From the NCBI RefSeq assembly GCF_004135405.1, contig NZ_CP035491.1, positions 2,294,001 through 2,358,000 on the forward strand: a DNA stretch of 64,000 bases. The letters are read 5' to 3'. Below the pieces are notes generated by a model. The model was not told the DNA's origin, did not search any database, and saw only the letters and a program-made list of their open reading frames with translations. This DNA is from Agromyces protaetiae (GTDB lineage Bacteria; Actinomycetota; Actinomycetes; Actinomycetales; Microbacteriaceae). Shown here piece after piece: positions 21,811-43,273 of the stretch. Position numbers and translations under genes: made by a program. Each line of letters begins with the position of its first letter. The stretch's first letter is position 1.

Positions 21811-21898
21811 ACCACGTCGCCGCCGAGTTGCTACGGTAGTCTCCGGTTCCGCCCTGGGGACCCGGGCGACGCCCGACATGCTTGCGATGAGGTGGACC

Positions 21899-22777
21899 GT
21901 GCCAGCTGACGCCGAACAGACGTTGGAGCTGCCCGGCGGCCGGGTGCTGATCGCCGCGAGCGCGAGGTCCGACGTCGGCCGGGTGCGCCACGTCAACGAA
22001 GACTCGTTCCTCGCCGAGACGCCTGTGTTCCTCGTCGCCGACGGCATGGGCGGGCACGCGAGGGGCGACGCGGCGAGCCAGGCGGTCGTCGCGACGTTCC
22101 GCCGCCACCTCGAGTTCGGTCGGGTGTCGACGCCCGAGCAGGTGCTCGACGCCATCCACACCGCGAACGACGCCGTCCGGGCGCTGAGCGACGACGGCGA
22201 CGAGGGCACCTCGGTCGCGGGCACGACGCTCGCCGGAGTCGCGCTGGTCGACGCCGGCGCCGGTCAGGGTGTGCGATGGATGGTGTTCAACATCGGCGAC
22301 TCCCGGGTGTACTCGTGGGACGGTCGCACCCTCCTACAGGTGAGCGTCGACCATTCGGCGGTTCAGGAATTGATGGATGCCGGCCTGCTCGACCCGTCCG
22401 AGGCCGAGCGGCACCCCGATCGGAACGTCATCACGCGCGCGATCGGCGCGGACGCCTACGTCGAGCCCGACGTGTGGCTGCTCCCGACGACGGGCCGCCA
22501 GACCTTCCTCGTCTGCTCCGACGGGCTCACGAAAGAACTCGACCTCGCCGGCATCGCGCACGTCCTCGCGTGCGGGACGAGCCCCGACGGGCGGGCGAGC
22601 GAACTCGTCGACGCGGCGCTCGCGGCGGGCGGTCGCGACAACGTGACCGCGGTCGTCGTCGAGAGCACGATCGGCGACCCCGCGGCTGCGGCCGACGAAA
22701 CCACCCGAGACCGCGACGACGTCGAGGTCGCCGTCGACGTCGAGGCGACCACCCCGAGAGACGGAGCACAGTCATGA
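21899..22777 (+). CDS. PP2C-family Ser/Thr protein phosphatase
   Basis: A 292-residue PPM phosphatase that would remove phosphate from Ser/Thr residues, most likely on proteins phosphorylated by the kinase two genes downstream. Metal-binding motifs are in order: RHVNEDSF, FLVADGMGGHARGD, FNIGDSRVY, LVCSDGLTKEL and GRDNVTAVVV. A short acidic tail follows and no membrane segment is present. The GTG at 21899 has GAGG 6 bases upstream; an ATG at 21878 lacks one. Its stop overlaps the next start (ATGA at 22774-22777). A TACGGT -10-like element at 21832-21837 may start the signalling operon. Confidence 0.9.
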   Translation: MPADAEQTLELPGGRVLIAASARSDVGRVRHVNEDSFLAETPVFLVADGMGGHARGDAASQAVVATFRRHLEFGRVSTPEQVLDAIHTANDAVRALSDDGDEGTSVAGTTLAGVALVDAGAGQGVRWMVFNIGDSRVYSWDGRTLLQVSVDHSAVQELMDAGLLDPSEAERHPDRNVITRAIGADAYVEPDVWLLPTTGRQTFLVCSDGLTKELDLAGIAHVLACGTSPDGRASELVDAALAAGGRDNVTAVVVESTIGDPAAAADETTRDRDDVEVAVDVEATTPRDGAQS

Positions 22778-24159
22778 GCGAGTACATCGTCGACCGCAGC
22801 GGGCGCTGGCTCGCCGCGATCAAGGGCGGCGCCGCGTTCATCGCGCCGCTCGCGTCGGCCGAGCTCGTGCGGGCCGCCTGGGGTGCTCTGTCCGAACGCG
22901 ACCCGGTCACCGCGGTGCTCGGTCGTCTCACGCGAGACGGCATCGTCGACCTTCCGCCGTTCGCGCTCGTCGTCGGCGGAGCCGAGAGCGCTCGAGTCGT
23001 GTTGCGGGGCGGGTTCTCCGTGCGGGCCGAAGGCGAGACCGTCACGGGCGCCGGCGTGTCGACGTGGGTCGAACGGCAGGTGCCGTTCGCTGCGGGGGTC
23101 GAGATCGCCGCGCCGTTCGCGGCGCCCGGCGACGATCAGGGGCTGCCGGTGGTCGACGGCGTCGTGCCGGCGTTGGTCGTGCGCCTCGGGGAGCGGGTCG
23201 CGGCGGCTGCGCCCGAGGGCGCGGCGAGCCCGCCGGTCGCGGTGCCCGAGTCCATCGAGGCGGACGTCGAGCCGGTGGGCGCCCTCGTTCCCGAGGCTCC
23301 AGTCGTTCCCGAAGCCGGCGACGCGCCCGAGATCGCGGACATCGCGACGGCGGATGCTCCGTGGTCGCCGGATGTCTCCGACGTTCCGTCTGCGGAGGTG
23401 CGGTCCGAGGCGCCGTCTGCCTGGGCGCCTCCGGCGGAGCCGGTCGAAACACCGCCGGCCGGGACATCCGAACCCGCTCATGCCGACCTCGCGGCCGTCG
23501 TCGACGTTCCCGTCCACGCGATCGAGGAGCAGACCCTCGTCGAGGGCGAGCCGGTCGAGGTCGCACCGGTGGTCGACGAACCGGCGGCCGAGGAGTCGTT
23601 CGACGACGCCACGGTCGTCGTCTCGCGCGCAACCGTCGAAAGCGCTCGTGCGAAGGCGGCCGTCGAGCCGGAACCGATCGAGGCGGCGACGCCCGCCGAC
23701 GAGGGCGACCATGACGGCATGACGATCGCCGTCTCCTCCATCCAACGGCTCAGGGCCGAGAACGCCGGTCGCGCCGCGAACACGAACGCCGAGGATCCCG
23801 TCGCCGTCGCGGCACCTTCACCCTCCGTTCGCCTCCTCCTGCCCGGCGGTCGCACCGAAGAGCTCTCGGGCGAGGCCGTGATCGGCCGCTCCCCGAACGT
23901 CTCGCGCGCGAGCGGCGGCCGACTGCCGAAACTCATCACGATCGGCGCCGACGACCCCGACATCTCGCGCAGCCATCTCCGCATCGGACTCGAAGGCGGC
24001 ACGGTCGTCGTGACCGACCTCCACTCGCGCAACGGCACCACGACGGTGCAACCGGGGCGCGCGCCCGTGCGGCTCCGCGCCGGCGAACCGACGCCGGTGC
24101 TCGTCGGCACCCTCCTCGACCTCGGTGGCGGCTGGACCGTCATCGTGGAGCACGCCTGA
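22774..24159 (+). CDS. FHA-domain protein with long acidic linker
   Basis: A 461-residue cytoplasmic protein. Residues 1-110 form an unrecognised N-terminal domain (SEYIVDRSGRWLAAIKGGAAFIA...). About 200 residues of alanine/proline/glutamate-rich linker follow, with several threonines (DDATVVVSRAT, MTIAVSS) that could be kinase targets. A C-terminal FHA domain spans roughly residues 350-461, with the phosphothreonine-binding GRS, SRSHL and HSRNGT motifs. It is coupled to the phosphatase upstream (ATGA) and to the kinase downstream (TGATG), and probably scaffolds phosphorylated partners in this cluster. Confidence 0.85.
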   Translation: MSEYIVDRSGRWLAAIKGGAAFIAPLASAELVRAAWGALSERDPVTAVLGRLTRDGIVDLPPFALVVGGAESARVVLRGGFSVRAEGETVTGAGVSTWVERQVPFAAGVEIAAPFAAPGDDQGLPVVDGVVPALVVRLGERVAAAAPEGAASPPVAVPESIEADVEPVGALVPEAPVVPEAGDAPEIADIATADAPWSPDVSDVPSAEVRSEAPSAWAPPAEPVETPPAGTSEPAHADLAAVVDVPVHAIEEQTLVEGEPVEVAPVVDEPAAEESFDDATVVVSRATVESARAKAAVEPEPIEAATPADEGDHDGMTIAVSSIQRLRAENAGRAANTNAEDPVAVAAPSPSVRLLLPGGRTEELSGEAVIGRSPNVSRASGGRLPKLITIGADDPDISRSHLRIGLEGGTVVVTDLHSRNGTTTVQPGRAPVRLRAGEPTPVLVGTLLDLGGGWTVIVEHA

Positions 24160-25835
24160 TGCGCCGGCAGGCGGCTGCGCCGCCCGAGCTCCCCGGGTAC
24201 AAGTACATCGACCACCTCGGATCCGGCGGCTTCGCCGACGTCTACCGATACGAGCAGCGGCTTCCGCGTCGTCAGGTCGCCGTCAAGGTGCTCCTCGCCG
24301 ACGACCTCACGGGTGACACGCGCGCCCAGTTCGTCGGCGAGGCGAACCTCATGGCGCAGCTGTCGGCGCATCCCTACATCGTGACGATCTTCCACGCCGA
24401 CGTCTCCGCCGACGGTCGGCCGTACTTCGTCATGGAGTACTGCCCGGGTCCGAGTCTCGCGACGCGACTGAAGCGCGAACCGCTCGGGGTCGCCGAAGCG
24501 CTCCGCACCGGCATCCGCATCGCGGGCGCAGTGGCGACCGCGCACTCCGCCGGCATTCTGCACCGCGACATCAAGCCCGCGAACGTGCTCACGAACAGCT
24601 ACGGCTGGCCGGCGCTCACCGACTTCGGCATCTCGTCGAACCTCGAGGGCGAAGTCCCCGAACTGACCATGACCGTCATGCCCGGGCAGGCGCCGGGCGC
24701 CACCACCGGCGGGTCGACCGCGGTCGGCATGAGCGTTCCGTGGTCGCCGCCCGAGCTCTTCGAGGACGACCCGCGCGCCGATCCCCGCAGCGACGTCTAT
24801 TCGCTCGCCGCGACGGTGCACACCCTCCTCGCGGGCCGCTCGCCGTTCGAGATCCCCGGCCGCTCCAACGGCGCCCTCGATCTCATCGGTCGCATCGAAC
24901 GCGGAGCGATCACGCCGATCGGACGCCCCGACGTGCCGACGAGCTTCGTCGAGGTGCTCCGCAAGGGGATGGCACCCAAGCCCGCCGACCGGTACCAAAG
25001 CGCCGTCGAGTTCGCCCGAGCGCTCCAGCGCGTCGAACTCGAACTCGGCTACGCCGCGACCGGCATCGAGGTGCCGAACCTCGCAGAGCCGCAGCCCGAC
25101 GACCGCGGAGAACCCGACGAGCCCGACGCCGCCGACGCGACCCGCGCACGGACCGTCCAGTCCGTCGCGGCGCAGCCGCCCGCCGCTCCGACGGGCGGGC
25201 TCGCCGACGTGACTCGTGCGCGAGCGCCGATCTCGATCAGCCCGCAACCCGCGCCGTCGCCCGTCGACGACCGCACCGTGGTCAGCCGACCGTCCGCACC
25301 CGCGGCCACGGCGCCGGCGCCGTCGCCCGGCGTCGCCGTCTCGACCGAGGTCGACGAGTCGACGGTGCTCCGTCCTCGGCAGGACGAGCTCACGGCGGGC
25401 GCGCCGGCCGCGGCGGGACCGAAGCGCTCTCGGGCCGGGCTCGTCGTGGGTCTCGTCGCGGGCGGCATCGTCGCGATCGTCGTCGCGGTCTCCGTCGTGT
25501 TCGCCTCGGTGTCGCCGCCGACGCCCCAGCCCGAGACGACGACGGCGGCCAAGCCGGAAGACGCCGTCGTCGAGGCATCCGTCCCCTCCGCCGTCGTCGC
25601 GCCGGGAGCGATCTCCGCCGACGGCACGTCGGCGACCTTCGCCGTGAGCCACGAGGGCGCCGAAGACGGCGACCGCTACCGCTGGACCCGTGCCGACGGT
25701 ATCGGCGGCACGCAGTCGTCCGACGGGCCGCAGATCGTCGTCGAGGGGCTCACGCCGGGACAGGCCGTCTGCATCGACGTCGCCGTGCAGCGGGGCGGCA
25801 GGACGTCCGAGGCGCAGCGCGGGTGCACGCAGTGA
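24159..25835 (+). CDS. Membrane Ser/Thr protein kinase (PknB-like) with extracellular Fn3-like sensor
   Basis: A 558-residue eukaryotic-type kinase. The catalytic domain (residues 15-290) has the glycine loop GSGGFADVY, Lys43 in VAVK, Asp137 in HRDIKPAN and Asp155 in DFG. The activation segment is unusually long and threonine/glycine-rich before SPPE. A disordered proline-rich linker leads to one transmembrane helix near residues 425-450, then an extracellular domain of about 90 residues with two cysteines and Fn3-like strands. It lacks PASTA repeats, so its signal is not the usual muropeptide. The start overlaps the FHA gene stop by one base. Confidence 0.92.
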   Translation: MRRQAAAPPELPGYKYIDHLGSGGFADVYRYEQRLPRRQVAVKVLLADDLTGDTRAQFVGEANLMAQLSAHPYIVTIFHADVSADGRPYFVMEYCPGPSLATRLKREPLGVAEALRTGIRIAGAVATAHSAGILHRDIKPANVLTNSYGWPALTDFGISSNLEGEVPELTMTVMPGQAPGATTGGSTAVGMSVPWSPPELFEDDPRADPRSDVYSLAATVHTLLAGRSPFEIPGRSNGALDLIGRIERGAITPIGRPDVPTSFVEVLRKGMAPKPADRYQSAVEFARALQRVELELGYAATGIEVPNLAEPQPDDRGEPDEPDAADATRARTVQSVAAQPPAAPTGGLADVTRARAPISISPQPAPSPVDDRTVVSRPSAPAATAPAPSPGVAVSTEVDESTVLRPRQDELTAGAPAAAGPKRSRAGLVVGLVAGGIVAIVVAVSVVFASVSPPTPQPETTTAAKPEDAVVEASVPSAVVAPGAISADGTSATFAVSHEGAEDGDRYRWTRADGIGGTQSSDGPQIVVEGLTPGQAVCIDVAVQRGGRTSEAQRGCTQ

Positions 25836-26533
25836 ACCCGCTCAAGATCGAGTTCTGCGGCGAGTGGTACCCGGTCGAGGCCGGCCGGCCCTTCGGGATC
25901 GGTCGCGACGCAGACCTCGTGGTCGACGAGAATCCCTACCTGCATCGCACCTTCCTGACGATCACCGACGAGCACGGGCTCTGGTGGCTCTCGAACGTCG
26001 GGCAACTGCTCTCGGCGACGGTCTCCGACTCGACGGGCAGCGTGCAGGCGTGGCTCGCGCCGGGGGCGAAGCTGCCGATCGTGTTCCAGACGCTGCACGT
26101 GATGTTCTCGGCCGGGCCCACGACCTACGACCTCACGATCCACGCCGAGGCCGACTACTACGGCACCTCGCTGACGGCGGAGGCGACACCCAACGGCACG
26201 ACGGTCATGCCCGTGACGCTGACCGCGAGCCAACGACTGCTCGTTCTGGCCATGTGCGAGCACGTCCTGGCCCAGCCCACCGCCGGACGCGGCGTCGTAC
26301 CCTCTTCGGCCGAAGCGGCCGAGCGCCTCGGGTGGAGCATGACGACGTTCAACCGCAAACTCGACAACGTGTGCGAGAAGCTCGACAAACTCGGCGTCGA
26401 CGGTCTCCGCGGCGGCAAGGGCAAACTCGCCACCAACCGCCGCGCGCGGCTCGTCGAGTACGCCGTCGCGACCCGACTCGTGAGCGCCGAAGACCTCCCG
26501 CTTCTCGACCGGAAGCCTTCGGGTGGCGCCTGA
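25832..26533 (+). CDS. FHA-like protein with C-terminal winged-helix-like region
   Basis: A 233-residue cytoplasmic protein. The N-terminal 100 residues look like a divergent FHA domain (RPFGIGRDADLVVDENPYLHRTFLTITDEHGLWWLSN). The C-terminal half reads as a helix-turn-helix (SAEAAERLGWSMTTFNRKLDNVCEKLDKLGVDG) with a basic GGKGKLATNRRARL stretch. A phospho-reader joined to a DNA-binding-like region would link the kinase upstream to transcription, and the conserved promoter just downstream is a candidate target; both points are inference. GTG at 25832 overlaps the kinase stop by 4 bp. Confidence 0.75.
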   Translation: MNPLKIEFCGEWYPVEAGRPFGIGRDADLVVDENPYLHRTFLTITDEHGLWWLSNVGQLLSATVSDSTGSVQAWLAPGAKLPIVFQTLHVMFSAGPTTYDLTIHAEADYYGTSLTAEATPNGTTVMPVTLTASQRLLVLAMCEHVLAQPTAGRGVVPSSAEAAERLGWSMTTFNRKLDNVCEKLDKLGVDGLRGGKGKLATNRRARLVEYAVATRLVSAEDLPLLDRKPSGGA

Positions 26534-26573
26534 GCGGAAGCCCGGCCTGCTCTCCACAACCTGCCCGCTCCCG

Positions 26574-26605
26574 TTCGGGGGACAGAAGTCCGCGTGTTAG
26601 GTTGA
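26574..26605 (+). promoter_or_regulatory. Promoter P1 of giant protein A (shared motif)
   Basis: TTCGGG (26574-26579), 14 bases, then GTGTTAGGTTGA (26594-26605). The same element with identical spacing occurs before giant protein B and before moxR. TAGGTT fits an actinobacterial -10 (TAnnnT). CCACA lies upstream in all three cases. Confidence 0.62.
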
Positions 26606-26672
26606 TCCGCGGACCGAGTCTCCGGATCGGCCGTGCGCCGACGACCGACGTCGAGATGGGGGTTGACACAAC

Positions 26673-29600
26673 GTGAGGTTCGCCTCCCGCCGCCCTGCCG
26701 GCAAGGCCATCGCCACGACCGCCGTACTCGCGATACTCGCTGGCGTCCCGCTCGGCATCGCGGTCCTGCACGAGGGCTTCCCCGTGACCGACCCCGACCT
26801 GCGCGCCCGAGAGGTCTGGGTGACGAACGCCGAAGATCTGCTCGCCGGGCGGTTGAACCGGCAGATCGAAGAGCTCGACGCAGGCGTCGCGGTCAACTCG
26901 TCGGAGGCCGACGTGTTCCAGCACGGCGACGACGCATTCGTCTACGACCCGGCTGCCGGCTCGGTGGAGCGCATCGATCCCTCGTTCGCAACACTCATCG
27001 AGCGCATCGACGTGCCGCCCGCCTCGAAGCTCGCCTATGGCGGCGACGTGCTGGCAGTCCTGTCTTCCAAGGGCGAACTCTGGCGGATTCCCACCGGGGC
27101 CGAACTGTCCTTCGATTGGCGCGGCACCGAGCCCCTCGCGCAGCTCGGCGAGGGCGGTGCGGTCGCGGTGTCCAGCGAGGGCACGATCTTCGCGACGGCG
27201 GTCGACGACGGCGAACTGCTCCGGTTCGCTCGCGACTCGGCCGAAGCCGAGCGCACCGAGGTCGGGAAGCTCGCCGACCACGACCACGAGCTCGCCGCGG
27301 TCGGCGAACGCGCGGTCCTGCTCGACCACGCGACGAACACGCTGCGCACGGGGGAGAGGACGATCGAGCTCCCCGCTCCCGGGCTGCGACTCCAGCAGAG
27401 CGGCGGTGAGTCCGACGACGTGCTCGTCGCGACATCCGATGCGCTGCTCGCAGTGCCGCTCGACGGAGGCGACGTCGCTTCGTACCCGGCCGGAGGGGGA
27501 GCCGCGGCGGCGACTGCGCAAGCCGTGGCCGCGCCGGTTCGCGTGGGCGCGTGCGCGCACGCCGCCTGGGCAGACGGAGGCCGGTACCTCTCCGTGTGCG
27601 ACGGGGAAGAGCCGCGCGGCGCCGACATCGAGCAGAAGACCGCCGGCGGTCGCCTCGAGTTCCGCGTCAACCGCGACGTCGTCGTGCTCAACAACCTCGC
27701 GAACGGCGATGCGTGGCTCGTCGATTCCGACCTCCGCCTCGTCGACAACTGGGACGAGGTGACGCCGCCCGACGAGAGCGACGACGAAGACGGCGACGAG
27801 AAGGCCTCGGTGCAGACCTTCGAAGACACGCTCGCCGACCGTACGGCGCAGAACCACCCGCCGTCCGCCCACGACGACCAGTTCGGCATCCGCACCGGTC
27901 GCTCCACGATCGTCGACGTGCTCGCGAACGACACCGATCCCGACGGCGACGTACTCACGATCGCATCGACGACCGAGGTGCCCGACGCCGCCGGTCGCCT
28001 CGAGCTCATCGACGGGGGCCGCGCGCTGCAGTTCGTGCCCGCCGAAGGCGCCGCCGGCACCGTGTCGTTCCGATACTCGGTCGACGACGGCCGCGACGGC
28101 GTCGCCGAGGCGTCGGCGAATCTCCGCATCGTCCCCGTGACCGAGAACGTAGCCCCCGCGCCCGCACGCGTCGGCGCCGTGAGCATCGAGCAGGGGCAGC
28201 AGATCTCATACAACCTGCTCGCGGATTGGATCGACCCCGACGGCGACGACGTCTTCCTGGTCGACGCGTCTCCGACCGGTGGCGACGCCGTGCGTGCGAG
28301 CCCCGACGGATTCATCACCTTCGAGCACAAGTCCGCCGAGCTCGGCGTCAAAGAGGTCGTGTACACCGTGTCCGACGGCACGGCGACCGCGAGCGGCACC
28401 TTCACCGTCGACGTCAAGCCCGAGGGATCGCTGAACCCGGTCGGCACGCCCGACTTCGCGCGCGTCTTCCCCGGCGAGTCGGTCGTGATCGAGCCGCTCG
28501 CGAACGACCTCTCGCCGTCGGGCGCGCCGCTGCAGCTGCTCGGCGTCAAAGACGTGGCCGACGGGGCATCCGCGGTCGCGAACCCCGATCGCGGCACGAT
28601 CACCTTCTCGAGCGCGCAGCCCGGCGATTTCGTGTTCCTCTACGACCTCGCGGCCGGGCCGACCGTGAGCGTCGGCCTCGTGCGGGTGCACGTGGCGACG
28701 GCGCCCGACGACGCTCCGCCGATCGCCGTCAAGGACACCGCCTACCTGCGTCCGGGGGAGCCGGTCACGGTGCCGGTGCTCGCCAACGACGTCTCTCCGT
28801 CCGGGCGGGTACTCGCGGTGCAGTCGATCGACGACTCCTCGACCGAAGGACTCGTCTCGGTCGAACTGCTGACGAACACGGTCGTGCGGGTGAGCGCGTC
28901 CGAGGCGCTCGATCGCCAGTTGCAGTTCACGTACACGGTGTCCGACGGCGTCGGCATTTCGACTGCGACCGTGACGGTGGTGCCGGTTCCGCCGCTCGTG
29001 AAGCACCAGCCGCCCGTCGCCCTCGACGACCGCGCGGTCGTGCGGGCCGGAGACATCGTCAGGGTGCCCGTGCTCGCGAACGACTACCACCCCGACGCGG
29101 CGAAGATCAGTCTGACGTCCGAACTCGACCTCTCGGGTGCGACCGGCGCGCTCGCCTTCGTCGATGGCGACGACGTTCGCTTCCAGGCGCCGAACGCCGC
29201 GGGCGTCCAGACGGTCGTCTACACCATCACCGACGACTTCGACCAGACCGCGACCGCGACGATCACGTTCACGGTGGTCGCCCGAGACGGGAAGAACCAG
29301 GCTCCGCTCCCGGTGCCGCTCACGTCGCGCACCTTCGACTCGTCCGCAGTCAAGATCGAGGTCCCGCTCGACGGCATCGATCCCGACGGCGACTCCGTCG
29401 TTCTCACCGACTTCACCGCGACTCCTTCGCTCGGCCGGATCGTGGAACGCACGAGCACCTCGTTCACGTATCAGGCGTTCGCCGGCTCGACGGGGACCGA
29501 CAGCTTCGAGTACGAAGTCCAAGACACGTTCGGCGAGCGCGCACGGGCGACGATCAGGATCGGCGTCATTCCGAGGCCGGCGACCCAGGCGCCGCCCAAG

Positions 29601-32021: not shown

Positions 32022-32066
32022 GGGAGCGGGGTTCGGTCGGCGCCCTCCACAGGGGAGTCCTCCCCA

Positions 32067-32098
32067 TTCGGAGGAGAACGGTCTCCGTGTTACGGTGA
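32067..32098 (+). promoter_or_regulatory. Promoter P2 of giant protein B (shared motif)
   Basis: TTCGGA (32067-32072), 14 bases, then GTGTTACGGTGA (32087-32098), 58 bases before the ATG. Position for position it matches P1 and P3, and CCACAGG lies upstream. Confidence 0.62.
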
Positions 32099-32155
32099 TG
32101 CCCGGCTCGGACAGTCGAGCGCAGGCGTCGGGCGTCGAGAGGGTCACGAGTTTCC

Positions 32156-35100: not shown

Positions 35101-37579
35101 GATGAAGCCCGGTCGCACGTTCGGCATCGAAGTCCTCGCGAACGACACCGACCCCAACGGCTACGCGTTGACCGTCACCGACCTTCCCGAGATCGACAAG
35201 GGCATCACGGCCGAGATCCGCGACGGCAAGCGCGTGGTCGTGAAGACACCGAAGTCCGAGGGCGCGTACACCCTCAGCTACGAGGTCTCCAACGGGCATG
35301 GCGGCATGGACTCGGCGTTCGTGCAGATCGCCGTGAGCGATGTCGCAGTCATCGAACCGCCGACCGCCGAGGACCAGATCATCGAGCCCGAGAAGGTCGT
35401 CTCGAAGGAGCCGGTCGCGGTCTTCCCGCTCCATGACGCGACGAACCCCGGCGGGCTCGTCGAGGATCTGGCCGTGACGGTCGAAGGGCCGAACGCCAAG
35501 CGCGCCGAGGTCGCTTCCGACGGGACGATCACCGTGACGCCGGGTCAGGAGCGCTACGCCGTGGCCTTCCGCTTGACGAACGAGGTCGACGACCTGTCGG
35601 CGATGGCGTTCGTCATCGTGCCGCCGCTGCCGCCGGAGCTCCTCGACGAGCCGCAGATCGACCCGAGAACGGGCAAGACGATCGAACCGACTGCACCGCC
35701 GGCTCCCACGGCAGCCGGAGCGACCCCGACTCCGACTCCCACTCCGACGGTGAAGCCGAAGACGCAGGAAGAGCTCGACGCCGAGGAGAAGGCGAAGTTC
35801 CCGCCGCCTCACCTGAAAGACCTCGACGAGATCGTCGTCCCGCAGAACGGCAAGATCGAGTGGGACATCGAAGACCTGGTCGAGGTGCCGTCGGGGCAGC
35901 CCGCACTCCTGCTGTCCGCCGAGGCGACGCATGCGAAGAACGACCCGATGGTCGACGACACGACGCTGCGGTTCCAGCCCGCGAAGGACTATCGGGGCCT
36001 CGCGACCCTCACCTTCGAGGTGACCGACGGCGAGGATGCAGACGACCCCGTCGGACGTACCGCGCTCCTCCGGCTGCAGATCATCGTCGGCGACCCCGAG
36101 TTCAACGACCAGCCGCCGACGTTCACGCCGCGCACGCTCACGATCGAGGCAGGCGAGTCGCCGGTGGAGATCGACCTGCGCGCGTCGACCGATCACACGA
36201 ACCGCGACAACATCCAGAAGGTCGGCTACCAGAACCTCAAGGGTGCGACCGGTGCGATCGCCGCGCAGCTCACCGGTGGATCGAAGCTGCGCGTGTCATC
36301 GCCGCTCGGCACGCCGACCAACACATCGACGCGGATCACGTTCGATCTGAAGTTCAACGAGTTCACGGTTCCCGGCTACGTCGATGTGAAGGTCGTGTCC
36401 TCGACGCGTCCGAAGCCCATCGCGGTCAACGATCCGGGTGCAGGCGAGATCGAGATGGGCCGGAGCGAGACGAAGCTCATCCCAGTGCTCGACAACGACT
36501 TCAATCCGTTCGCCCAAGACGGCCAGCCGCTGCGCATCATCGACACGTCGATCGACCAAGCGAGCGTCGGCGCGAACGCGAGTGCTGTGGTGTCGGGTTC
36601 GAACGTTTCGGTCCGCACCGGACCGACGTTCACGGGAACGCTCAGCATCATCTACCGCATCGGCGATGCGACGAAGGATGCGACGCGCGAAGCGCAGGGT
36701 CGTGTGACGGTCGTCGTGCGCGCGGCGCCCGACAAGGCGAATCCGCCGACGGCCAGTGCCGGAGACGGCACCGCGATCGTGCGGTTCACCGCGCCGGCGA
36801 ACAACAACTCGCCGATCACGGGGTACCTGCTGACGTGGAACGGCGGATCCCGTGACCTCGGTGCTGCCGAAGCGGGCCGCGATCAGACGATCTCCGGCCT
36901 GACCAACGGCACTGCGTATCAATTCCGCGTCGTCGCGATCAACGCGAAGGGGTCGAGCCCGGCCTCCGACCAGTCCGTCGCGGTGACGCCGTACGGTGCG
37001 CCTTCGGCGGTCGGATCCCTCTCGATCCCCACTCCGGGTTACGGTCCGACGACGGTCACGGCGAACTGGACGGCGCCCGGCGTGACCGGCGGCGGGGCGG
37101 TGAAGTATCAGGCCAGGATCGACAGCGGCGGATGGAACGACGTGTCCGGACTGAGCTTCTCGTTCTCGAACATCGGTGTCGGTTCGCACACGGTGTACGT
37201 GCGTGCGGTGAACGTCGGCAGCGGGAAGCCCGGACCCGAGACCTCGCGGGCGGTCGGCGTCCCACAGGAGCCGCCGCCGCCCCCGGTGTACGGACAGGTC
37301 TGCAAGCGAGAGTTCTCGAGCGGGCGGGGCTGGCTCGTCGGGTTGAACTACTACAACGTGCCTGCCGGCAACTACACCGTCCACGCGACGATCGCAGGTG
37401 GGTGGACCGGCACGAAGCCGGTCATCTACCTCAGCGGGACAGGGTCGGTGACACTGCAGAACTACATCTGGAACACGACCGGGCCCGTCTCCGTGTCGGT
37501 CGTCGGCCCGACGACCGTGAGCGTCGGCACCGCCTCGGTCAGTGACTGGCGCAATCTGCCCGTCGGCACCTGTTGGTAG
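32156..37579 (+). CDS. Giant surface protein B: paralogue of A with a different C-terminal tip
   Basis: A 1,807-residue paralogue of the preceding gene with the same order: anchor (VASTAVLAVLAGVPIGIAVL), propeller-like region, Ig-like repeats and two Fn3 domains (about 1525-1705). Similarity runs through the whole stalk, often residue for residue. A threonine/proline linker (TPTPTPTPT) near residue 1193 accounts for most of the 25 extra residues. The last 100 residues differ completely: two cysteines (GQVCKREF and GTCW) and a strand-rich NYYNVPAGNYTVHATIAGG module replace the four-cysteine tip of A. The conserved stalk with divergent tip suggests different ligands or partners. Confidence 0.85.
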   Translation: MGFFSLRGPARKSVASTAVLAVLAGVPIGIAVLHEGFPVTDPDLRVRDVWVTNASDLLAGRLNRQIEELDAAVAVASATADVFQNGDDVFLYDAVAGAVERVDPSYTELIERIDVPPASKLAYGGDVLAVLSPKGELWRISTGGELSFDWRGTEPVAKLGEGGAVAVSGEGTVLATAAEKGELLELARGVDEPERVEVGSLGEHQLAAVGEQPVILDRAKNTVIVGDRRVDLPDDGLRLQQSGPDAESAIVATSNGLLEIPLGGGEVVERSADGASGSTPDRVAAPVRVGTCVHGAWADSARYLAVCDGREPHAVALDQSSGSGRFEFRVNRDVVALNNLDNGDAWLIDSDLRLVDNWGEVSPPDESDGEEGDEKASTESFEDTLAQRTEQNRPPVAHDDTYGVRAGRATIIDVLQNDSDPDGDVLTVASTTAVPESMGRLEVIDGGRALQFLPAEAAAGTTSFRYSVSDGREGVAEASVNVRLVPESENVAPVSLRSAALSIEQNQQISYNLLTDWVDPDGDDVFLVDASPTGGDSVRASPDGSITFEHKSAELGLKEVAFTVSDGTATATGTLTVDVKPAGSLNPVGTPDFARVFPGESIAIEPLANDRSPSGAPLELLGVRETPDGATVTANPDRGTITFSSAAPGEYVFLYDLAAGEKLSVGLVRVQVAERPTDDAAPIAVKDTAYLRPGEPVVVPVLSNDVSPAGLVLAVQSVDDTATQGLVSVELLTNTVVRVSAFEALDRQLQFTYTVSDGRGTSTATVTVVPVPPLVKHQPPVALDDRTVVRAGDIVTVPVLANDYHPDASPIRLLDDLDQSGAPGGLAFIDDESIRFQAPETAGVQTVSYTITDDFEQTARATVTFTVVARDGSNRAPSPLPITSRTFESSGVKVDVPLDGIDPDGDSVTLLDFTSTPALGRITSRTSRSFTYEAFAGTAGTDSFTYEVQDAFGERATGTIRIGVIPRPLTQAPPVAVDDSVQMKPGRTFGIEVLANDTDPNGYALTVTDLPEIDKGITAEIRDGKRVVVKTPKSEGAYTLSYEVSNGHGGMDSAFVQIAVSDVAVIEPPTAEDQIIEPEKVVSKEPVAVFPLHDATNPGGLVEDLAVTVEGPNAKRAEVASDGTITVTPGQERYAVAFRLTNEVDDLSAMAFVIVPPLPPELLDEPQIDPRTGKTIEPTAPPAPTAAGATPTPTPTPTVKPKTQEELDAEEKAKFPPPHLKDLDEIVVPQNGKIEWDIEDLVEVPSGQPALLLSAEATHAKNDPMVDDTTLRFQPAKDYRGLATLTFEVTDGEDADDPVGRTALLRLQIIVGDPEFNDQPPTFTPRTLTIEAGESPVEIDLRASTDHTNRDNIQKVGYQNLKGATGAIAAQLTGGSKLRVSSPLGTPTNTSTRITFDLKFNEFTVPGYVDVKVVSSTRPKPIAVNDPGAGEIEMGRSETKLIPVLDNDFNPFAQDGQPLRIIDTSIDQASVGANASAVVSGSNVSVRTGPTFTGTLSIIYRIGDATKDATREAQGRVTVVVRAAPDKANPPTASAGDGTAIVRFTAPANNNSPITGYLLTWNGGSRDLGAAEAGRDQTISGLTNGTAYQFRVVAINAKGSSPASDQSVAVTPYGAPSAVGSLSIPTPGYGPTTVTANWTAPGVTGGGAVKYQARIDSGGWNDVSGLSFSFSNIGVGSHTVYVRAVNVGSGKPGPETSRAVGVPQEPPPPPVYGQVCKREFSSGRGWLVGLNYYNVPAGNYTVHATIAGGWTGTKPVIYLSGTGSVTLQNYIWNTTGPVSVSVVGPTTVSVGTASVSDWRNLPVGTCW

Positions 37580-37625
37580 CGACCGCCGCGTGGTGAGCAC
37601 CCCGAATCGCCTCATCCACAGGCGA

Positions 37626-37657
37626 TTCGGGGGCTGGCCTCCGCTGTGTTAGGTTGA
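37626..37657 (+). promoter_or_regulatory. Promoter P3 of the moxR operon (shared motif)
   Basis: TTCGGG (37626-37631), 14 bases, then GTGTTAGGTTGA (37646-37657), 86 bases before the moxR GTG. It matches P1 in every defined position. Confidence 0.62.
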
Positions 37658-37742
37658 CCGGTGCATCCCCCCGATCGGGGTCTACGGGGTGCGAAATCGG
37701 TGTTGAGAACAGGCCTTCGGGCCGTGGGGATGGAGTTCGAAC

Positions 37743-38711
37743 GTGGCAGTGACGCAAGAGCAGGCCGCCTGGTTCCAGGATGCATTCGGCAAGCTCGTCG
37801 ACAACGTCGATCAGGCCATCCTCGGCAAGCGCGAGGTCATCTCGCTCGTGCTCACGGCGATGCTCTCGGGCGGTCACGTGCTCCTCGAAGACGTCCCCGG
37901 CACCGGCAAGACGGTGCTCGCCAAGGCGCTCGCCAACACGATCGACGGCACCCACTCGCGCATCCAGTTCACGCCCGACCTCCTGCCTTCCGACGTGACG
38001 GGCGTCACCATCTACGACCAGGGCAAGGGTCGCTTCGAGTTCCACCACGGCCCGATCTTCGCGTCGATCGTCCTCGCCGACGAGATCAACCGGGCGAGCC
38101 CCAAGACGCAGTCCGCGCTGCTCGAGGTCATGGAGGAGGGGCGAGTCACGGTCGACGGCGTCGGCTACGACGTCGAACCCCCGTTCATGGTGGTCGCCAC
38201 GCAGAACCCCATCGAACAGGGCGGCACGTACTCGCTCCCCGAGGCGCAGCTCGACCGCTTCCTCATCAAGACGTCGCTCGGCTACCCCGACCACCAGACC
38301 GCGGTGACGGTGCTGCTCGACTCGGCGAACCGTTCGCGCGCCGCCGGCGTGTCGCCGATCATCGCCGCGAGCTCGATCACGACGATGGCGAACCTCGCTG
38401 CCGAGGTGTTCGTCGATCCCTCGGTCGTGTCGTACCTCAACGAACTCGTCACGGCGACCCGCGCGCACCAGTCGGCTGCGCTCGGCGTCAGCATGCGAGG
38501 TGCGCTCGCGCTCGCCCGCGCCGTGAAGACGTGGGCGATCGCCCACGGTCGCACGTATGTCACGCCCGACGACGTGCGCGAACTCGCGGTGCCCGTCCTC
38601 GCGCACCGCATCATCGTCGACCCCGAGGCCGAGTTCACCGGGACGACGGCTCGCGAGATCGTCGAAGCGGCGATCACGTCGGTCGCGCCTCCGGCGTACC
38701 GCGCGGCATGA
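37743..38711 (+). CDS. MoxR-family AAA+ ATPase (module 1)
   Basis: A 322-residue AAA+ chaperone-like ATPase. Walker A is EDVPGTGKTVLAKAL, Walker [23 protein letters not shown], sensor 1 VVATQNPIEQGGTYSLPEAQLDRF, and the C-terminal lid domain is complete. MoxR proteins remodel or mature partner complexes, usually with DUF58 or VWA proteins encoded alongside. GTG at 37743 has GGAG 8 bases upstream. Its stop overlaps the DUF58 gene (ATGA). It has its own copy of the promoter shared with the giant-protein genes. A second, diverged MoxR is encoded at 55883. Confidence 0.92.
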   Translation: MAVTQEQAAWFQDAFGKLVDNVDQAILGKREVISLVLTAMLSGGHVLLEDVPGTGKTVLAKALANTIDGTHSRIQFTPDLLPSDVTGVTIYDQGKGRFEFHHGPIFASIVLADEINRASPKTQSALLEVMEEGRVTVDGVGYDVEPPFMVVATQNPIEQGGTYSLPEAQLDRFLIKTSLGYPDHQTAVTVLLDSANRSRAAGVSPIIAASSITTMANLAAEVFVDPSVVSYLNELVTATRAHQSAALGVSMRGALALARAVKTWAIAHGRTYVTPDDVRELAVPVLAHRIIVDPEAEFTGTTAREIVEAAITSVAPPAYRAA

Positions 38712-40015
38712 CGCGCGCGAAAGCGCGCGCCGAGGCATCCGAAGCAACGGTTTCGCAAGGGCGAATCGCGCTCGCGACGGTCGGGCGTTCGATCATGCGC
38801 ACCCTCGGCGCGATCGGGCGCAGGGTCGCGACGGCCGGTCGTGCGGTCGGGAGGATCGCGTCCCCGGTCACGAGTGTGATTTCGACGATCGGATGGCTCG
38901 TGCTGGGTGCTGCGGTCGCGACCGCGCTGATCGCCGTCGCATTCGACTGGGTCGAGTTCGCATTCGTCGCTGCGACGCTCGTCGGTGCGGTGCTCATTGC
39001 GATTCCGTTCGTCTTCGGGCGCATGCGGTACAACGTCGCCGTCGAGCTCAAGCCGTCCCGCGTCGTCGCCGGGGAGCGTGCACTCGGCCGACTGGTGGTC
39101 GTGAACGACGGCTCCGCCGCAACCGTTCCGTCGCGGATGGAGCTTCCCGTCGGTGCGGGCGTCGCCGGCTTCCGCATTCCCGCGCTCGCGGGCGGCGCCG
39201 ATCACGAAGAGCTCTTCGCCGTGCCGACGCAGCGACGCGCGGTCATCGTCGCAGGCCCCGCGATCTCGGTGCGCGGTGACGAACTCGGGCTGCTCCGCCG
39301 CACCGTGAAGTGGAGCGAGCCGGTCGAACTGTTCGTGCATCCGCGCACCGCCAGATTGAAGCCCTCCGCGGCGGGACTCGTCAAAGATCTCGAGGGCGAG
39401 ACGACGCAGACGATCACCGACCATGACATCTCGTTCCACGCGCTTCGCGCCTATGTCCCCGGTGATCCGCTCCGCAACGTCCACTGGCGGAGTTCCGCCC
39501 GCACGGGTCAGCTGATGGTGCGCCAGTACGAAGAGACGCGCCGTTCCGAACTCGTGCTCGCGCAGTCGACAGTGGCCGCCCACTACGCCGATGACGACGA
39601 GTTCGAGCTCGCCGTCTCGATCTTCGCGTCGCTCGGAGTGCAGGTCGTCCGCGACGGCACGACGAGTTCGGCCGCCACCGAAGACCTCTCGCTCCGCACG
39701 TCGACGACGACCTCGTTCCTCGACGACACCTCGCGTATCGCGCCGCGAACCCAGACCACCGTGCTTCGGGAGTTCGTTCGCGAAGTACTGCGCCGCGCAC
39801 AGTCGGCGAGCGTCGTGCTCCTCGTCGTCGGATCCGAACTTCCGCTCGCCGAGTTGCGGTCGATCGAGACGATCCTGCCTTCCGAAGCGCAGCTGCTCGC
39901 GTTCCGCGCCGACCGCGGCGCCGATGCCCGCATCTCCAAGGTCGGATCGACGCTCGTCGCGACGATCGGCGACCTCTCCGAACTCGCTGCCGTGGTGAAG
40001 AGGGTGCGACCGTGA
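38708..40015 (+). CDS. DUF58 membrane protein (module 1)
   Basis: A 435-residue protein with a basic cytoplasmic N-terminus, two adjacent transmembrane helices (VISTIGWLVLGAAVATALIAV and FAFVAATLVGAVLIAIPFVF) and the DUF58 signature FHALRAYVPGDPLRNVHWRSSARTGQLMVRQYEETR, followed by a VWA-like C-terminal domain. DUF58 proteins are the usual partner of MoxR ATPases. Overlaps of 4 bp on both sides couple it to moxR and to the transglutaminase-like gene, so the three are made in fixed ratio. Confidence 0.9.
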   Translation: MTRAKARAEASEATVSQGRIALATVGRSIMRTLGAIGRRVATAGRAVGRIASPVTSVISTIGWLVLGAAVATALIAVAFDWVEFAFVAATLVGAVLIAIPFVFGRMRYNVAVELKPSRVVAGERALGRLVVVNDGSAATVPSRMELPVGAGVAGFRIPALAGGADHEELFAVPTQRRAVIVAGPAISVRGDELGLLRRTVKWSEPVELFVHPRTARLKPSAAGLVKDLEGETTQTITDHDISFHALRAYVPGDPLRNVHWRSSARTGQLMVRQYEETRRSELVLAQSTVAAHYADDDEFELAVSIFASLGVQVVRDGTTSSAATEDLSLRTSTTTSFLDDTSRIAPRTQTTVLREFVREVLRRAQSASVVLLVVGSELPLAELRSIETILPSEAQLLAFRADRGADARISKVGSTLVATIGDLSELAAVVKRVRP

Positions 40016-42327
40016 ACCGCATTACGGCAGCGAGCTGGGGCGACCTCGCCGTCCTGTCCGTCCTGAGCCTCGTGGCCGTCGCCGGGTACGAGACGAGCTT
40101 CGGCGACGCCGACTTCCTCTTGGCAGCGGTCGGCGGCCTGCTGGTCGGGACCGGTGCGGCGCTCGCCGGCACGCTGCTGCGGGTCGGGGTGCTCCCGACC
40201 GTGCTCCTGGCGATCGCCGCGTACTTCGTCTTCGGCACGCCCTTCACGATGCCCGCGCAAGGCCTCTTCGTCGTCGTGCCGACGCTCGATTCGCTGACCG
40301 GACTCGCGTTCGGCGCGGTCTACGGCTGGGCCGACATCCTCACCATCGGCACTCCCATCGAGGCGCCGTACTACATCGCCGCGGTTCCCTACGTGGCGAC
40401 GTGGCTGGTCTCGCTCGTCTGCAGCCTGCTCGTGCTCCGCTGGCTGCCGCGGCGAGGATCGGTCCTGCGGGCGTCGGTACTCCTGCTCGGTCCGATCGTG
40501 CTCTACATCTCGGGCATCCTGCTCGGGACGGACGAGACGTTCCTGGCGGCGGTTCGAGGCATCGCCTTCGCAGTGATCGCGCTCGTCTGGCTTGCTCGGC
40601 GGCGTTCGAAGATCGTCGAGTCCGAACGAGGCTCGGACACCCGCTCGCTCGTCCGCAAGACGGGCGGGGTCGCGGTCGTCGTGGCGGGCGCGATCGTGGT
40701 GGGCGCCGCTGCCGGTCTGGCCTGGTCGCCTGCGGCAGGCGACCGATTCGTGCTGCGCGACCACGTCACGCCGCCGTTCGACGCTCGCGAGTTCCCGAGT
40801 CCGCTCGCAGGGTTCCGGCACTACACGAAGGATCTCGCCGAGGAGTCGCTCTTCACAGCGACCGGGCTCGAGCCCGGAGACGTCATCCGACTCGCCTCGA
40901 TGGATTCGTACACAGGCCGGCTCTGGACCGTCGCGAGCCCTGAAGAGGCGGCAGACGGCGGATACGCGATCGTCGGAGAGACCCTCCCGCAGCCGCCGCT
41001 CGCCGACCTCGGATCCAGCAGGGACGTCGAGATCGACGTCATGTCGTACGACGATGTGTGGATGCCCATGGTCCGCTACGGCCAGACGCTGCGGCTCCTC
41101 GACAAGGGATCGAACGAGCGCGCCGGCGATCTGCGGTACAACCCCGACAACGGTACGGCTGTGCTCACGAGCGGCCTCTCGAAGGGCGCGAAGTACGAGT
41201 TCAGCGCCGAAGTCCAGAACGAGCCCGACACCGACGCGCTCCTCGACGTCCCGATCGCGAACCTCGCGATGCCGCCCGTCGACGACGTCCCCGACGTCGT
41301 CGCCGCGAAGGCCGAGGAGTACGCGGGCGATGCCGCGACCGCGATCGAGCAGATTCGCGGCATCGAGCAGGGGCTCAAGTCGAACGGCTTCCTGAGCCAC
41401 GGGCTCGCATCCGACTCGGTCGCGTCTCGGGCCGGCCACGGCGCCGATCGCCTCATCGAGCTCTTCACGCGCTCGCAGATGGTCGGCGATGAAGAGCAGT
41501 ACGCGGCTGCCATGGCGCTCATGGTGCGACAACTCGGCTACCCTTCGCGCGTCGTCATGGGCTTCGCACCTGAGATCCCCCAAGGTGCGGGCTCGGTCGA
41601 GGTGCTCGGCGCCGATGTGACGGCGTGGGTCGAGGTCCCGTTCGAGGGAGTCGGGTGGGTCTCGTTCAGGCCCACCCCCGACGAGGTCGACGTTCCGCAG
41701 GAGCAGACGCCGAAGCCGAAGAGCGAACCGCAGCCGCAGGTGCGACAGCCTCCGCGGAGCGATTCGGTCGACGACGAGCTGCTGTCGACCGTCGAGATCG
41801 ACGACACCGAAGAAGACGACCCCGATCGTCCCTTCCAGATCCCGGTCTGGGTGTGGTTCGCCGCCGGCTCCGTGCTGATTCCGTTGCTCATCGTCTTCGT
41901 GCCGATGATCATCGTCGCGATCGCGAAGGCGCGCCGTCGGAATCGCAGACGCCTCGACCGGCCCGACCGGAGTTCGGCCGGTGCGTGGGACGAACTCGTC
42001 GATCGATACGCCGAGCTCGGGTTCGAGCCGCCCGCGCTCGGATCGCGTCTGCAAGTCGCGGCCGCACTCGAGCGTCAGAGCGCAGAGCAGGGTCTCGCGG
42101 ACTCTGCTCGGTCGCTCACGCCGCTCGCGATCGCGGTCGATCGCGATGTGTTCGCGGGTGAAGACGTCTCGGGCGTCGTCGATCACCGATGGACAGAGGC
42201 CGACGCGACGGCTGCAGCGGTCTCGGCTGCGGCCGGCGGATTCAGGCGATTCGTCGCGAAGTACCGGATCTCCAAGCGCGGTCGTTCGGTGAAGCGCGCG
42301 AGCCGCGGCGGTCGCTCGAGTAGGTAG
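40012..42327 (+). CDS. Transglutaminase-fold membrane protein lacking catalytic residues (module 1)
   Basis: A 771-residue TgpA-like protein: several N-terminal transmembrane helices, an extracytoplasmic transglutaminase core, a transmembrane helix near residue 615 and a cytoplasmic tail. The core is recognisable (AAAMALMVRQLGYPSRVVMGFAPE, AWVEVPFEGVGWVSF), but all three catalytic positions are changed: Glu494 replaces Cys in GDEEQYA, Thr537 replaces His in DVTAW, and Arg553 replaces Asp in FRPTP. It is therefore probably a binding pseudoenzyme. The paralogue at 58232 keeps Cys and His. GTG 40012 overlaps the DUF58 stop by 4 bp. Confidence 0.87.
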   Translation: MNRITAASWGDLAVLSVLSLVAVAGYETSFGDADFLLAAVGGLLVGTGAALAGTLLRVGVLPTVLLAIAAYFVFGTPFTMPAQGLFVVVPTLDSLTGLAFGAVYGWADILTIGTPIEAPYYIAAVPYVATWLVSLVCSLLVLRWLPRRGSVLRASVLLLGPIVLYISGILLGTDETFLAAVRGIAFAVIALVWLARRRSKIVESERGSDTRSLVRKTGGVAVVVAGAIVVGAAAGLAWSPAAGDRFVLRDHVTPPFDAREFPSPLAGFRHYTKDLAEESLFTATGLEPGDVIRLASMDSYTGRLWTVASPEEAADGGYAIVGETLPQPPLADLGSSRDVEIDVMSYDDVWMPMVRYGQTLRLLDKGSNERAGDLRYNPDNGTAVLTSGLSKGAKYEFSAEVQNEPDTDALLDVPIANLAMPPVDDVPDVVAAKAEEYAGDAATAIEQIRGIEQGLKSNGFLSHGLASDSVASRAGHGADRLIELFTRSQMVGDEEQYAAAMALMVRQLGYPSRVVMGFAPEIPQGAGSVEVLGADVTAWVEVPFEGVGWVSFRPTPDEVDVPQEQTPKPKSEPQPQVRQPPRSDSVDDELLSTVEIDDTEEDDPDRPFQIPVWVWFAAGSVLIPLLIVFVPMIIVAIAKARRRNRRRLDRPDRSSAGAWDELVDRYAELGFEPPALGSRLQVAAALERQSAEQGLADSARSLTPLAIAVDRDVFAGEDVSGVVDHRWTEADATAAAVSAAAGGFRRFVAKYRISKRGRSVKRASRGGRSSR

Positions 42328-42328
42328 G

Positions 42329-43273
42329 GTGGGCGTCGTGGACGGGTCTGGTTTCATCGTGCCGCCTCCCGGGCTGGTGCCCGAGGAGAGCGTGCCTGCG
42401 ACCACGCGCCGGCCGCGGCCGGTCGAGCGTTCGCTTCCGACGTTCGCACCTCCGGCTTTCGCCGGCCCGGGGGCGGGGCCGTCGACGCCTGTTGCGGCGC
42501 AGCCCGCCGCCACGCCGGCTCCCGAGCCGACGGACGCACCGACGCCCGCGTTCTCGCCCGAACCGGCGCCTGCGCCTGCGTTCGCGCCGATGCCGCAGCC
42601 TGCGTTCGCACGACCCGACGCTCCGGTCGGGTCAGAGCCCGAGCCCGAGCCCGCGCCTGAACCCGCCGCGTCAGCACGGCCCGCCTCGGTCTGGGCGCAG
42701 CCCGCGGGTGAAACCATCGTCTTCGAATCGGTGTCGTCGCTTGCCGCGCTCGCCGCACCGCCGCTGCCGGAGCCGGCATTCGCGCCCGCACCGGTACCTG
42801 CGCCGGCGCAGGCAGCTCCGTCGGTACCGTCCGCCGCGCCCGTTCCGACGGCAGGCATGCCCCCCGTGGCATCCGAAGCCCCGCGTTCCGAACCCGTCGC
42901 CCCCGCGACGGGGCCGACCTCGATCGCGATCTGGAGCCTCCGCAGCGACCGCCTCGACATCCAGCTCGAAGGGCGAACCGTGCTCGGCCGAGCGCCGGTC
43001 GTCGAACCGACGTTCGCTCCGGCCGTCGCGATCCGAGTCGACGATCCGGAGCGCACGGTGTCGAAGACGCACGCGATCATCGAGCCGGCAGTCGGCGTCT
43101 GTCGTGTGACCGACCTGCGGTCGACGAACGGGGTGCGCATCGAGCGTGCCGACGGTTCGTCGACCGATCTGGCGTCCGGGGCGTCCGAGGATCTCGCCGA
43201 CGGCGACGTGGTCGCGCTGGGGGAGTACCGGTTCACCGTGGTCGGGCCCGCCCGATCGAACGTGTACCCTTGA
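42329..43273 (+). CDS. Proline/alanine-rich FHA-domain protein
   Basis: A 314-residue cytoplasmic protein. About 195 residues of proline/alanine-rich low-complexity sequence precede a C-terminal FHA domain (residues 200-314) with [13 protein letters not shown] and RSTNGVRI, the phosphothreonine-binding signature. It is the last gene of the cluster, starting 2 bases after the transglutaminase-like stop, so it belongs to the moxR operon and gives the module a phospho-reader. The start is either GTG 42329 or GTG 42338; both lie in a GGTAGGGTGGG ribosome-binding stretch. Confidence 0.85.
43265..43270 (+). promoter_or_regulatory. -10 element of the leu leader transcript
   Basis: TACCCT lies 6 bases before the ATG of a leucine-containing leader ORF, so transcription would start at or next to that ATG (leaderless). 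The surrounding GTGTACCCTTGA resembles the shared P1-P3 motif, but no strong -35 is evident. It overlaps the end of the FHA gene. Confidence 0.42.

Follow-up and report, generated by a model that had tools for sequence, protein, structure and literature searches.

In gut bifidobacteria, the PFNA operon is known as an immune-sensing operon, for which the accessible text of the cited papers gives the gene order pkb2-fn3-aaa/moxR-duf58-tgm-prpC-hyp-fha (PMC8430577, PMC6803598, PMC10688814), the prpC phosphatase gene and the FHA gene being described for some species only. According to these reports, MoxR is a phosphorylation target of Pkb2, FN3 binds TNF-alpha, and the operon aids adhesion (PMC8430577, PMC10688814); FN3 is stated to occur only in Bifidobacterium (PMC10688814), and the operon has earlier been compared with mycobacterial moxR operons (PMC12067865). 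In the accessible text on type VII secretion system (T7SS) variants, T7SSd of Actinomycetota (Olsenella, Bifidobacterium) combines WXG100 proteins, an EssC ATPase with an FHA domain of the phosphothreonine (pThr) type, a membrane kinase, a small transmembrane (TM) protein, and a 1,654-amino-acid (aa) Ig-like giant, TsdI (PMC11217815), while T7SSe has an additional phosphatase and FHA protein (PMC11217815; Garrett, Higginson, Palmer 2024). Here we analyze a ten-gene cluster of Agromyces protaetiae within a 64,000-nucleotide stretch, the window (2294001 to 2358000 of the 3.68-Mb single-contig genome; positions below are counted in the window unless given as genome positions). Gene order and domain matches make this a PFNA-type cluster and hence a known kind in variant form, and many of its relatives adjoin type VII secretion genes.

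Gene order and distribution of a PFNA-type cluster

All ten genes lie on the + strand, as an earlier note made from the sequence alone had described; its word "fused" for the parts of the cluster was loose, the genes being neighbors. The pkb2-fn3-moxR-duf58-tgm order and the single direction of the PFNA operon recur here, with a gene for an FHA-winged-helix protein after the kinase and a second giant. The large exported Fn3 protein of PFNA is matched by giants with fn3 domains and an N-terminal TM segment, and the prpC and FHA genes are present too, although at different positions. The window thus differs from PFNA in its two giants, extra FHA gene, FHA-winged-helix gene, and phosphatase at the 5' end, and in the EssC and WXG100 genes that adjoin the cluster in relatives. 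Starts and stops overlap by 1 to 4 bases at five joints (PP2C/FHA1, FHA1/kinase, kinase/FHA-winged-helix, MoxR/DUF58, and DUF58/transglutaminase), which bears out the coupling by overlap claimed earlier for the signaling genes, and a single base separates the transglutaminase gene from FHA3.

A two-sequence profile of the N-terminal part of the giants matched 42 of 394 genomes of the class and a 23-sequence profile 79 of 394 (66 match lines above 120 bits); in the order, this part was matched in 243 of 396 genomes and 60 of 109 genera (best E value above 1e-20 in five listed genomes), the tallies of 79 and 243 being taken at E <= 0.001 with weak matches included. By these matches, relatives of the cluster are widespread in the order. 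A restriction of PFNA or FN3 to bifidobacteria was considered and is ruled out by the 243 of 396 genomes together with the named loci that carry cluster relatives, 26 of Agromyces and 1 of Glaciibacter. Agromyces species are mainly soil bacteria.

The neighborhood of the giant was tallied in 49 whole-genome loci, which were chosen from the matches and not at random, and from which G178 was excluded (truncated giant, below 300 bits; such handles denote genomes). MoxR is present near the giant in 45 loci (44 in the tally plus G517), DUF58, transglutaminase, and kinase in 47 each, FHA in 41, and PP2C in 35. MoxR, DUF58, transglutaminase, and kinase occur together in 45 of the 49 (again 44 plus G517); the tally had passed over the MoxR of G517, encoded in one frame with the giant, and the EssC of G389. 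None of the four partners is present at G331 (a 3.8-kb contig) or at the isolated giant G002a, and no MoxR match was found at the G138 and G705 loci. Among the named loci, 19 of 27 have all four, and the remaining eight span only 8.8 to 17.3 kb. The signaling block precedes the giant in Agromyces, G360, and G326 and follows the transglutaminase or FHA3 gene in G239, G297, G002, and G230, and the kinase block is on the opposite strand in G287 and G185; the two blocks stay together despite these swaps of order. The cluster is a real, well-conserved system, and the claim that its genes form one system is supported, since the giants and the MoxR and FHA genes are not apart in most of the loci examined.

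Closest to the published operon are five genomes of one family (f50; 1.7 to 2.3 Mb, locus GC content of 57 to 67%), which we infer to be Bifidobacteriaceae. They have the kinase-giant-MoxR-DUF58-transglutaminase order, with scores of 604 to 833 bits against the giant model. A PP2C match follows the transglutaminase in two of the five (G706, 24 bits; G715, 202 bits), with an FHA match behind it on the other strand, whereas the published PFNA operon runs in one direction.

Both giants and moxR are preceded on the + strand by the promoter-like motif TTCGGRGG-N(13-16)-TGTTASGKTGA, at 26574 to 26605 (giant A), 32067 to 32098 (giant B), and 37626 to 37657 (moxR), each site being 32 bases long. These are the only three matches in the 3.68-Mb genome, and the motif read backwards, used as a control, has none; the pattern was derived from the same three sites, and what the genome search adds is its absence elsewhere. 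The common promoter motif proposed in the earlier note is thus confirmed for all three genes. Of 30 other Agromyces regions, 7 have a core-like site close to where the giant begins. A perfect 13-nucleotide inverted repeat with a 7-nucleotide loop (37600 to 37632), perhaps a terminator or operator, is located directly upstream of the moxR motif.

Signaling proteins, giants, and the MoxR module

The signaling block comprises a PP2C-type protein phosphatase (21878 to 22777, with an uncertain start at 21878, 21899, or later; Pfam PP2C_2, 43.3 bits), FHA1 (22774 to 24159; Pfam FHA, 29.9 bits), a membrane Ser/Thr kinase (24159 to 25835; Pfam Pkinase, 119.6 bits) with one TM segment at aa 429 to 447 by hydropathy, and the FHA-winged-helix protein (25832 to 26533); FHA3 (42329 to 43273; Pfam FHA, 29.3 bits) closes the cluster. 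The HRD and DFG residues of the kinase are kept in 53/53 and the metal-site motifs of the phosphatase in 47 to 48 of 48 relatives. FHA1 and FHA3 each have a low-complexity N-terminal part, which is long in FHA1, and a C-terminal FHA domain, with GR..SRSH..N and GR..SKTH..N, respectively; the N-terminal part of FHA1 contains acidic-x-T-hydrophobic motifs, which recur in 20 of 51 relatives. Between the catalytic domain and the TM segment, the kinase linker reads DRTVVSR from aa 371 and ESTVLR from aa 400. The corresponding motif, [DE]xT[VIL][VIL]x?R, is present in the linkers of 27/27 Agromyces kinases and 11 of 25 others, with 39 and 15 occurrences against shuffled means of 0.73 and 0.74 (maxima, 3 and 6); elsewhere in the cluster, the motif exceeds its shuffles only in FHA1 from outside Agromyces (6 versus 0.72; maximum, 4). 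The linker threonines are candidate docking sites, and because these putative acceptor motifs are conserved, a kinase-to-FHA logic appears likelier.

The FHA-winged-helix protein was characterized from its sequence, an alignment, and a structural model searched with Foldseek. It is 49 to 65% identical to ten relatives and is modeled as an FHA sandwich with a C-terminal winged helix at about residues 132 to 226; the FHA-1 domain of Rv1747 ranks first among the Foldseek matches and EmbR ranks 44. EmbR of M. tuberculosis, which consists of an FHA domain plus a winged helix, likewise joins DNA binding and FHA in one protein, but the domain order is reversed here and the FHA domain is without the usual S..H. 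An invariant LHR takes that place, and phospho-binding by this protein is therefore doubtful; it was not among the matches of a genome-wide FHA search.

Giant A (26673 to 32021; Pfam, alignment, and TM analysis) and giant B (32156 to 37579; Pfam, AlphaFold model, Foldseek, and VIA-align) have 1,782 and 1,807 aa, in line with the roughly 1,800 residues first given for them, and are 68% identical. Both consist of an N-terminal TM segment, a beta-propeller, Ig/cadherin-like repeats, Fn3 (Pfam fn3, 34.4 and 44.8 bits, respectively), and a C-terminal tip. The propeller is modeled at about aa 47 to 365 of giant B (AlphaFold model, pLDDT 85.8; Foldseek, VIA-align) and assigned in giant A by homology to that model. 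No C-terminal TM segment was found by hydropathy in any of 67 giants. The giants are predicted to be anchored N-in in the membrane, with the propeller near the membrane, followed by an Ig stalk and a variable tip; the membrane-proximal propeller is new to us. Identity between A and B, taken per 100 alignment columns, is 55 to 87% up to column 1600 (60 to 87% within columns 401 to 1500) and lowest in the tips, at 42, 30, and 28% in columns 1601 to 1826.

Giants of other forms were also encountered. In G517, giant and MoxR occupy one 2,194-aa open frame (MoxR at 1869 to 2194), which may be a fusion or contain an internal MoxR start. An isolated giant of about 2,030 aa in G002 (C11) has no cluster gene found within 34 kb, and a full cluster is located elsewhere in the same genome. 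The Agromyces fucosus locus has three consecutive giant reading frames, the third cut by the end of the locus, and the G178 cluster, which includes EssC and several WXG100 genes, has a giant frame of only about 435 aa.

Downstream of the giants are a MoxR AAA+ ATPase (37743 to 38711; Pfam AAA_3, 208.7 bits; Walker A/B and lid), whose Walker A and B motifs are kept in 54/54 relatives, a DUF58 protein (38708 to 40015; Pfam DUF58, scanned in a longer reading frame; two TM segments by hydropathy), and a polytopic transglutaminase-like protein (40012 to 42327; Pfam Transglut_core, 46 bits). This three-gene order is that of the MoxR-DUF58-TgpA operon, and the closest solved structure to the third protein is PDB 6g49, a protein-glutamine gamma-glutamyltransferase, which we take to be TgpA. 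The cluster departs from that operon in having lost the catalytic Cys, mostly also the His, and the DUF58 motif. The catalytic Cys is present in none of 70 sequences, its place reading G[DN]xEQ[YF], itself conserved, and the f50 proteins are without it too (GDSEQY); the His is kept in 19 of 70 and the Asp in 26 of 70. The core of the window copy has none of the three, as the earlier note had recognized in calling the transglutaminase dead. Transglut_core is the only Pfam domain detected in it, TgpA_N and DUF4129 being undetected, and the DxSxS motif of DUF58, presumably the vWA metal site, is found in 0 of 55 cluster proteins. A second MoxR-DUF58-transglutaminase set in the same window (55883 to 60589), 12 kb downstream, served as a control: its transglutaminase has TgpA_N, Transglut_core, and a weak DUF4129 match and keeps the catalytic Cys and His (aligned stretches GYCVHF and DLHAW, versus GDEEQY and DVTAW in the cluster copy), and its DUF58 reads VVDTTLS at the DxSxS place. 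With the transglutaminase residues and the DUF58 motif lost, the module therefore looks like a non-enzymatic derivative of this kind of housekeeping operon. Judged by its residues, the "transglutaminase" of such clusters is a conserved pseudoenzyme, which corrects its annotation as an enzyme; we did not find it described as dead before, and the observation is new to us.

Type VII secretion genes beside related clusters

WXG100 genes were found within 30 kb of a giant in at least 19 of 40 genomes, against 2.6 expected under random placement; matches under the Pfam cutoff are included, and the associated P value of ~4e-13 assumes independent genomes, which they are not. An EssC/EccC-type ATPase is located near the cluster in 16 of the 49 loci and additionally in G389 and G178. 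At 12 linked loci, an EssC-like ATPase with a pThr-type FHA domain stands beside cluster genes, 10 of them also with WXG100; among the matches listed, no WXG100 was seen near EssC in G002 and G239, the G239 piece ending there. EssC follows the FHA-winged-helix gene in G002, G230, G248, G297, G176, and G305, the transglutaminase gene in G257 and G178, and FHA3 in G092, G326, and the second cluster of G239. With starts set by our own gene caller, EssC begins 4 bases inside the end of the FHA-winged-helix gene (G002, G176) or of the transglutaminase gene (G257, G178), and gaps of 1, 9, and 76 bases separate the former gene from EssC in G248, G297, and G230. In G389, of the same family as A. protaetiae, EssC precedes PP2C, in the order EssC-WXG100-(4 genes)-WXG100-PP2C-FHA1-kinase-FHA-winged-helix-giant-MoxR-DUF58-transglutaminase-FHA3, and one gene of the locus encodes a putative T7SS signal domain (PF21725).

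Nine EssC proteins were scanned (six of the 12 linked ones, that of G375, and the short ones of G117 and of cluster b of A. protaetiae); all match TIGR03928, TIGR03924, and TIGR03925, and six of the nine have an FHA domain by Pfam, while the EssC whose full scores are shown falls under all three curated cutoffs. In a tree of 20 EssC sequences, for which no support values were taken, the 12 that are linked and bear an FHA domain form one group, every member of which matches GR..S..H..N, whereas the unlinked ones do not match it. The EssC of A. protaetiae at 1.506 Mb and its kin in G213, G094, and G375 form a separate group without this match, although G375 keeps GR.

Two sister clusters are present in the A. 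protaetiae genome. Cluster b (genome position ~3.230 to 3.248 Mb) is of the same kind; it has a single giant, and its FHA3 is followed by a short EssC-like ATPase. Cluster c (~217 to 243 kb) is preceded by EccCa and EccCb domains (604 bits to TIGR03924 and 717 bits to TIGR03925, above cutoff), a mycosin-like protease (114 bits; cutoff, 279), and a WXG100 pair; the EccC domains occupy two overlapping frames, and the gene may be split or frameshifted. A separate T7SS locus at ~1505.8 to 1517.9 kb contains an EssC with a degenerate FHA domain, an FHA protein, three WXG100-like genes, and a large reading frame with a toxin-like Gln_amidase domain.

The earlier statement that there are no secretion-system genes thus holds for type VII in the window and fails for many relatives and for the two sister clusters of this genome. 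Its comparison with PpkA/PppA/Fha control of type VI secretion captured a real likeness, in that a kinase, a phosphatase, and an FHA reader stand beside an envelope machine, and is closer than was assumed; however, no type VI family matched among the window proteins scanned, and the secretion link is to type VII. As a whole, that interpretation, in which phosphorylation would control the giants and MoxR-DUF58 would mature them, is partly supported; it had overlooked the PFNA counterpart, the basal propeller of the giants, and the presence of type VII genes beside related clusters.

With T7SSd and T7SSe, the cluster shares a one-TM kinase, an EssC with a pThr-type FHA domain, WXG100, and a giant Ig-like protein, EssC and WXG100 being contributed by relatives; the phosphatase and the FHA protein are further features in common with T7SSe. 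Conversely, MoxR, DUF58, and transglutaminase are not mentioned in the accessible text of PMC11217815, and the full-length EssC of A. protaetiae at 1.506 Mb does not have the pThr-type FHA residues that the 12 linked relatives possess. The cluster probably works like, and is related to, a T7SSd/e-type system; we do not file it as a member, because the window copy fails two features that define any T7SS, EccC/EssC and WXG100. No link of PFNA or of a MoxR-DUF58-transglutaminase set to T7SS was found in the open-access literature searched, and this link, seen in gene neighborhoods, is new to us.

Explanations for the cluster and their meaning

We give about an even chance to the reading that the cluster is a PFNA-type, pThr-controlled envelope module of, or derived from, an undescribed T7SS variant resembling T7SSd/T7SSe. 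Under such a scheme, the kinase would autophosphorylate its linker threonines ([DE]xT[VIL][VIL]R), the phosphorylated linker would recruit FHA1, FHA3, and, where present, EssC, and the PP2C phosphatase would reset the linker. The FHA-winged-helix protein would act on the motif confined to the giants and moxR, and MoxR would remodel a DUF58/pseudo-transglutaminase membrane complex that holds or loads the giants. In line with the proposal for the Ig protein TsdI of T7SSd, the giants may cross the envelope or stand out from it. Because a cognate EssC is absent from this Agromyces, the module here would either serve a different T7SS or act as a display system by itself.

Several observations weigh against this reading. 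The window contains no EssC-like gene and no WXG100 gene, the nearest of the genome's 7 listed WXG100 matches being ~590 kb away. The genome is without a cognate FHA-type EssC, its best match being 35% identical and of the unlinked type. Among nine Agromyces genomes queried with the G389 EssC, a full-length cognate protein (52% identity over 1,400 aa) is present in four, at a distance from the giant, and is followed by a WXG100 match at ~0.4 kb in G117 and ~4 kb in G289; the other five, A. protaetiae included, have only the unlinked type (32 to 35%), yet giants occur in all nine. Since these five keep their giants, the cluster, as far as genome content tells, outlives its cognate EssC. No EssC is found nearby in 32 of the 49 loci, or in any of the 27 named loci, which span 8.8 to 21 kb and are in many cases too short to exclude it; the Bifidobacterium-like G517, G706, and G715 have no EssC or WXG100 match in 37 to 60 kb, and two nearby EssC proteins (G375, G705) fall outside the FHA clade. 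TsdI has a C-terminal TM segment in the accessible description of T7SSd, whereas the cluster giants have none (0/67) and carry a propeller. The connection to T7SS is drawn from gene neighborhood, and proximity is not function.

As the cluster persists without EssC, in 32 of 49 loci and at the Bifidobacterium-like ones, we go no higher than even for the T7SS reading and leave real, if clearly smaller, weight to stand-alone surface display or adhesion, the view taken of PFNA, which we judge unlikely. Here the kinase would sense a ligand, MoxR-DUF58-transglutaminase would fold the giant and present it as an adhesin, and the T7SS genes would be mere neighbors. The giants kept without a cognate EssC by A. 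protaetiae and four others of the nine Agromyces fit this well, as do the divergent tips (42, 30, and 28% versus 60 to 87%) and the accessible reports that the bifidobacterial operon binds TNF-alpha and aids adhesion and that Pkb2 phosphorylates MoxR (PMC8430577, PMC10688814). Mere neighborhood, however, sits poorly with WXG100 near the giant in at least 19 of 40 genomes against 2.6 expected, with the overlapping joints between cluster genes and EssC, and with the confinement of pThr-type FHA to linked EssC among the 20 compared; a role in host immunity only is at odds with 26 Agromyces loci and with giants in 243 of the 396 genomes searched in the order.

Cell-wall or envelope maintenance, in which the cluster would be a kinase-controlled paralogue of the housekeeping MoxR-DUF58-TgpA operon that builds an envelope-spanning scaffold, strikes us as improbable. 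A canonical operon of this type, with Cys and His kept, does lie in the same window (55883 to 60589), but the catalytic Cys is absent from 70/70 cluster proteins, a presence in 60 of 109 genera is too patchy to fit a basic wall function well, and tandem giants whose tips diverge point to specificity for a ligand or target. Least probable by far is a co-inherited genomic island without functional coupling of the kinase/FHA block, the giant/MoxR block, and EssC: block order swaps between genera and the kinase block is inverted in G287 and G185, but the blocks remain together through these swaps, starts and stops overlap, and the promoter motif is restricted in this genome to the giants and moxR.

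The T7SS reading may extend further, to a proposal that we hold tentatively and at somewhat less than even confidence: PFNA-type clusters would be the signaling and envelope half of an undescribed, pThr-gated T7SS subtype across the order, with the giants as conduit or target tip, the dead module as assembly factor, and FHA-EssC recruited by the kinase. The findings link two literatures, on the PFNA operon of probiotic bifidobacteria and on the newly described T7SS subtypes; they indicate that operons of this kind extend beyond host-associated bifidobacteria, and they give a testable model for the control of secretion by threonine phosphorylation in actinobacteria. If the proposal is true, the bifidobacterial FN3 "cytokine receptor" would be a component or relic of a secretion machine.

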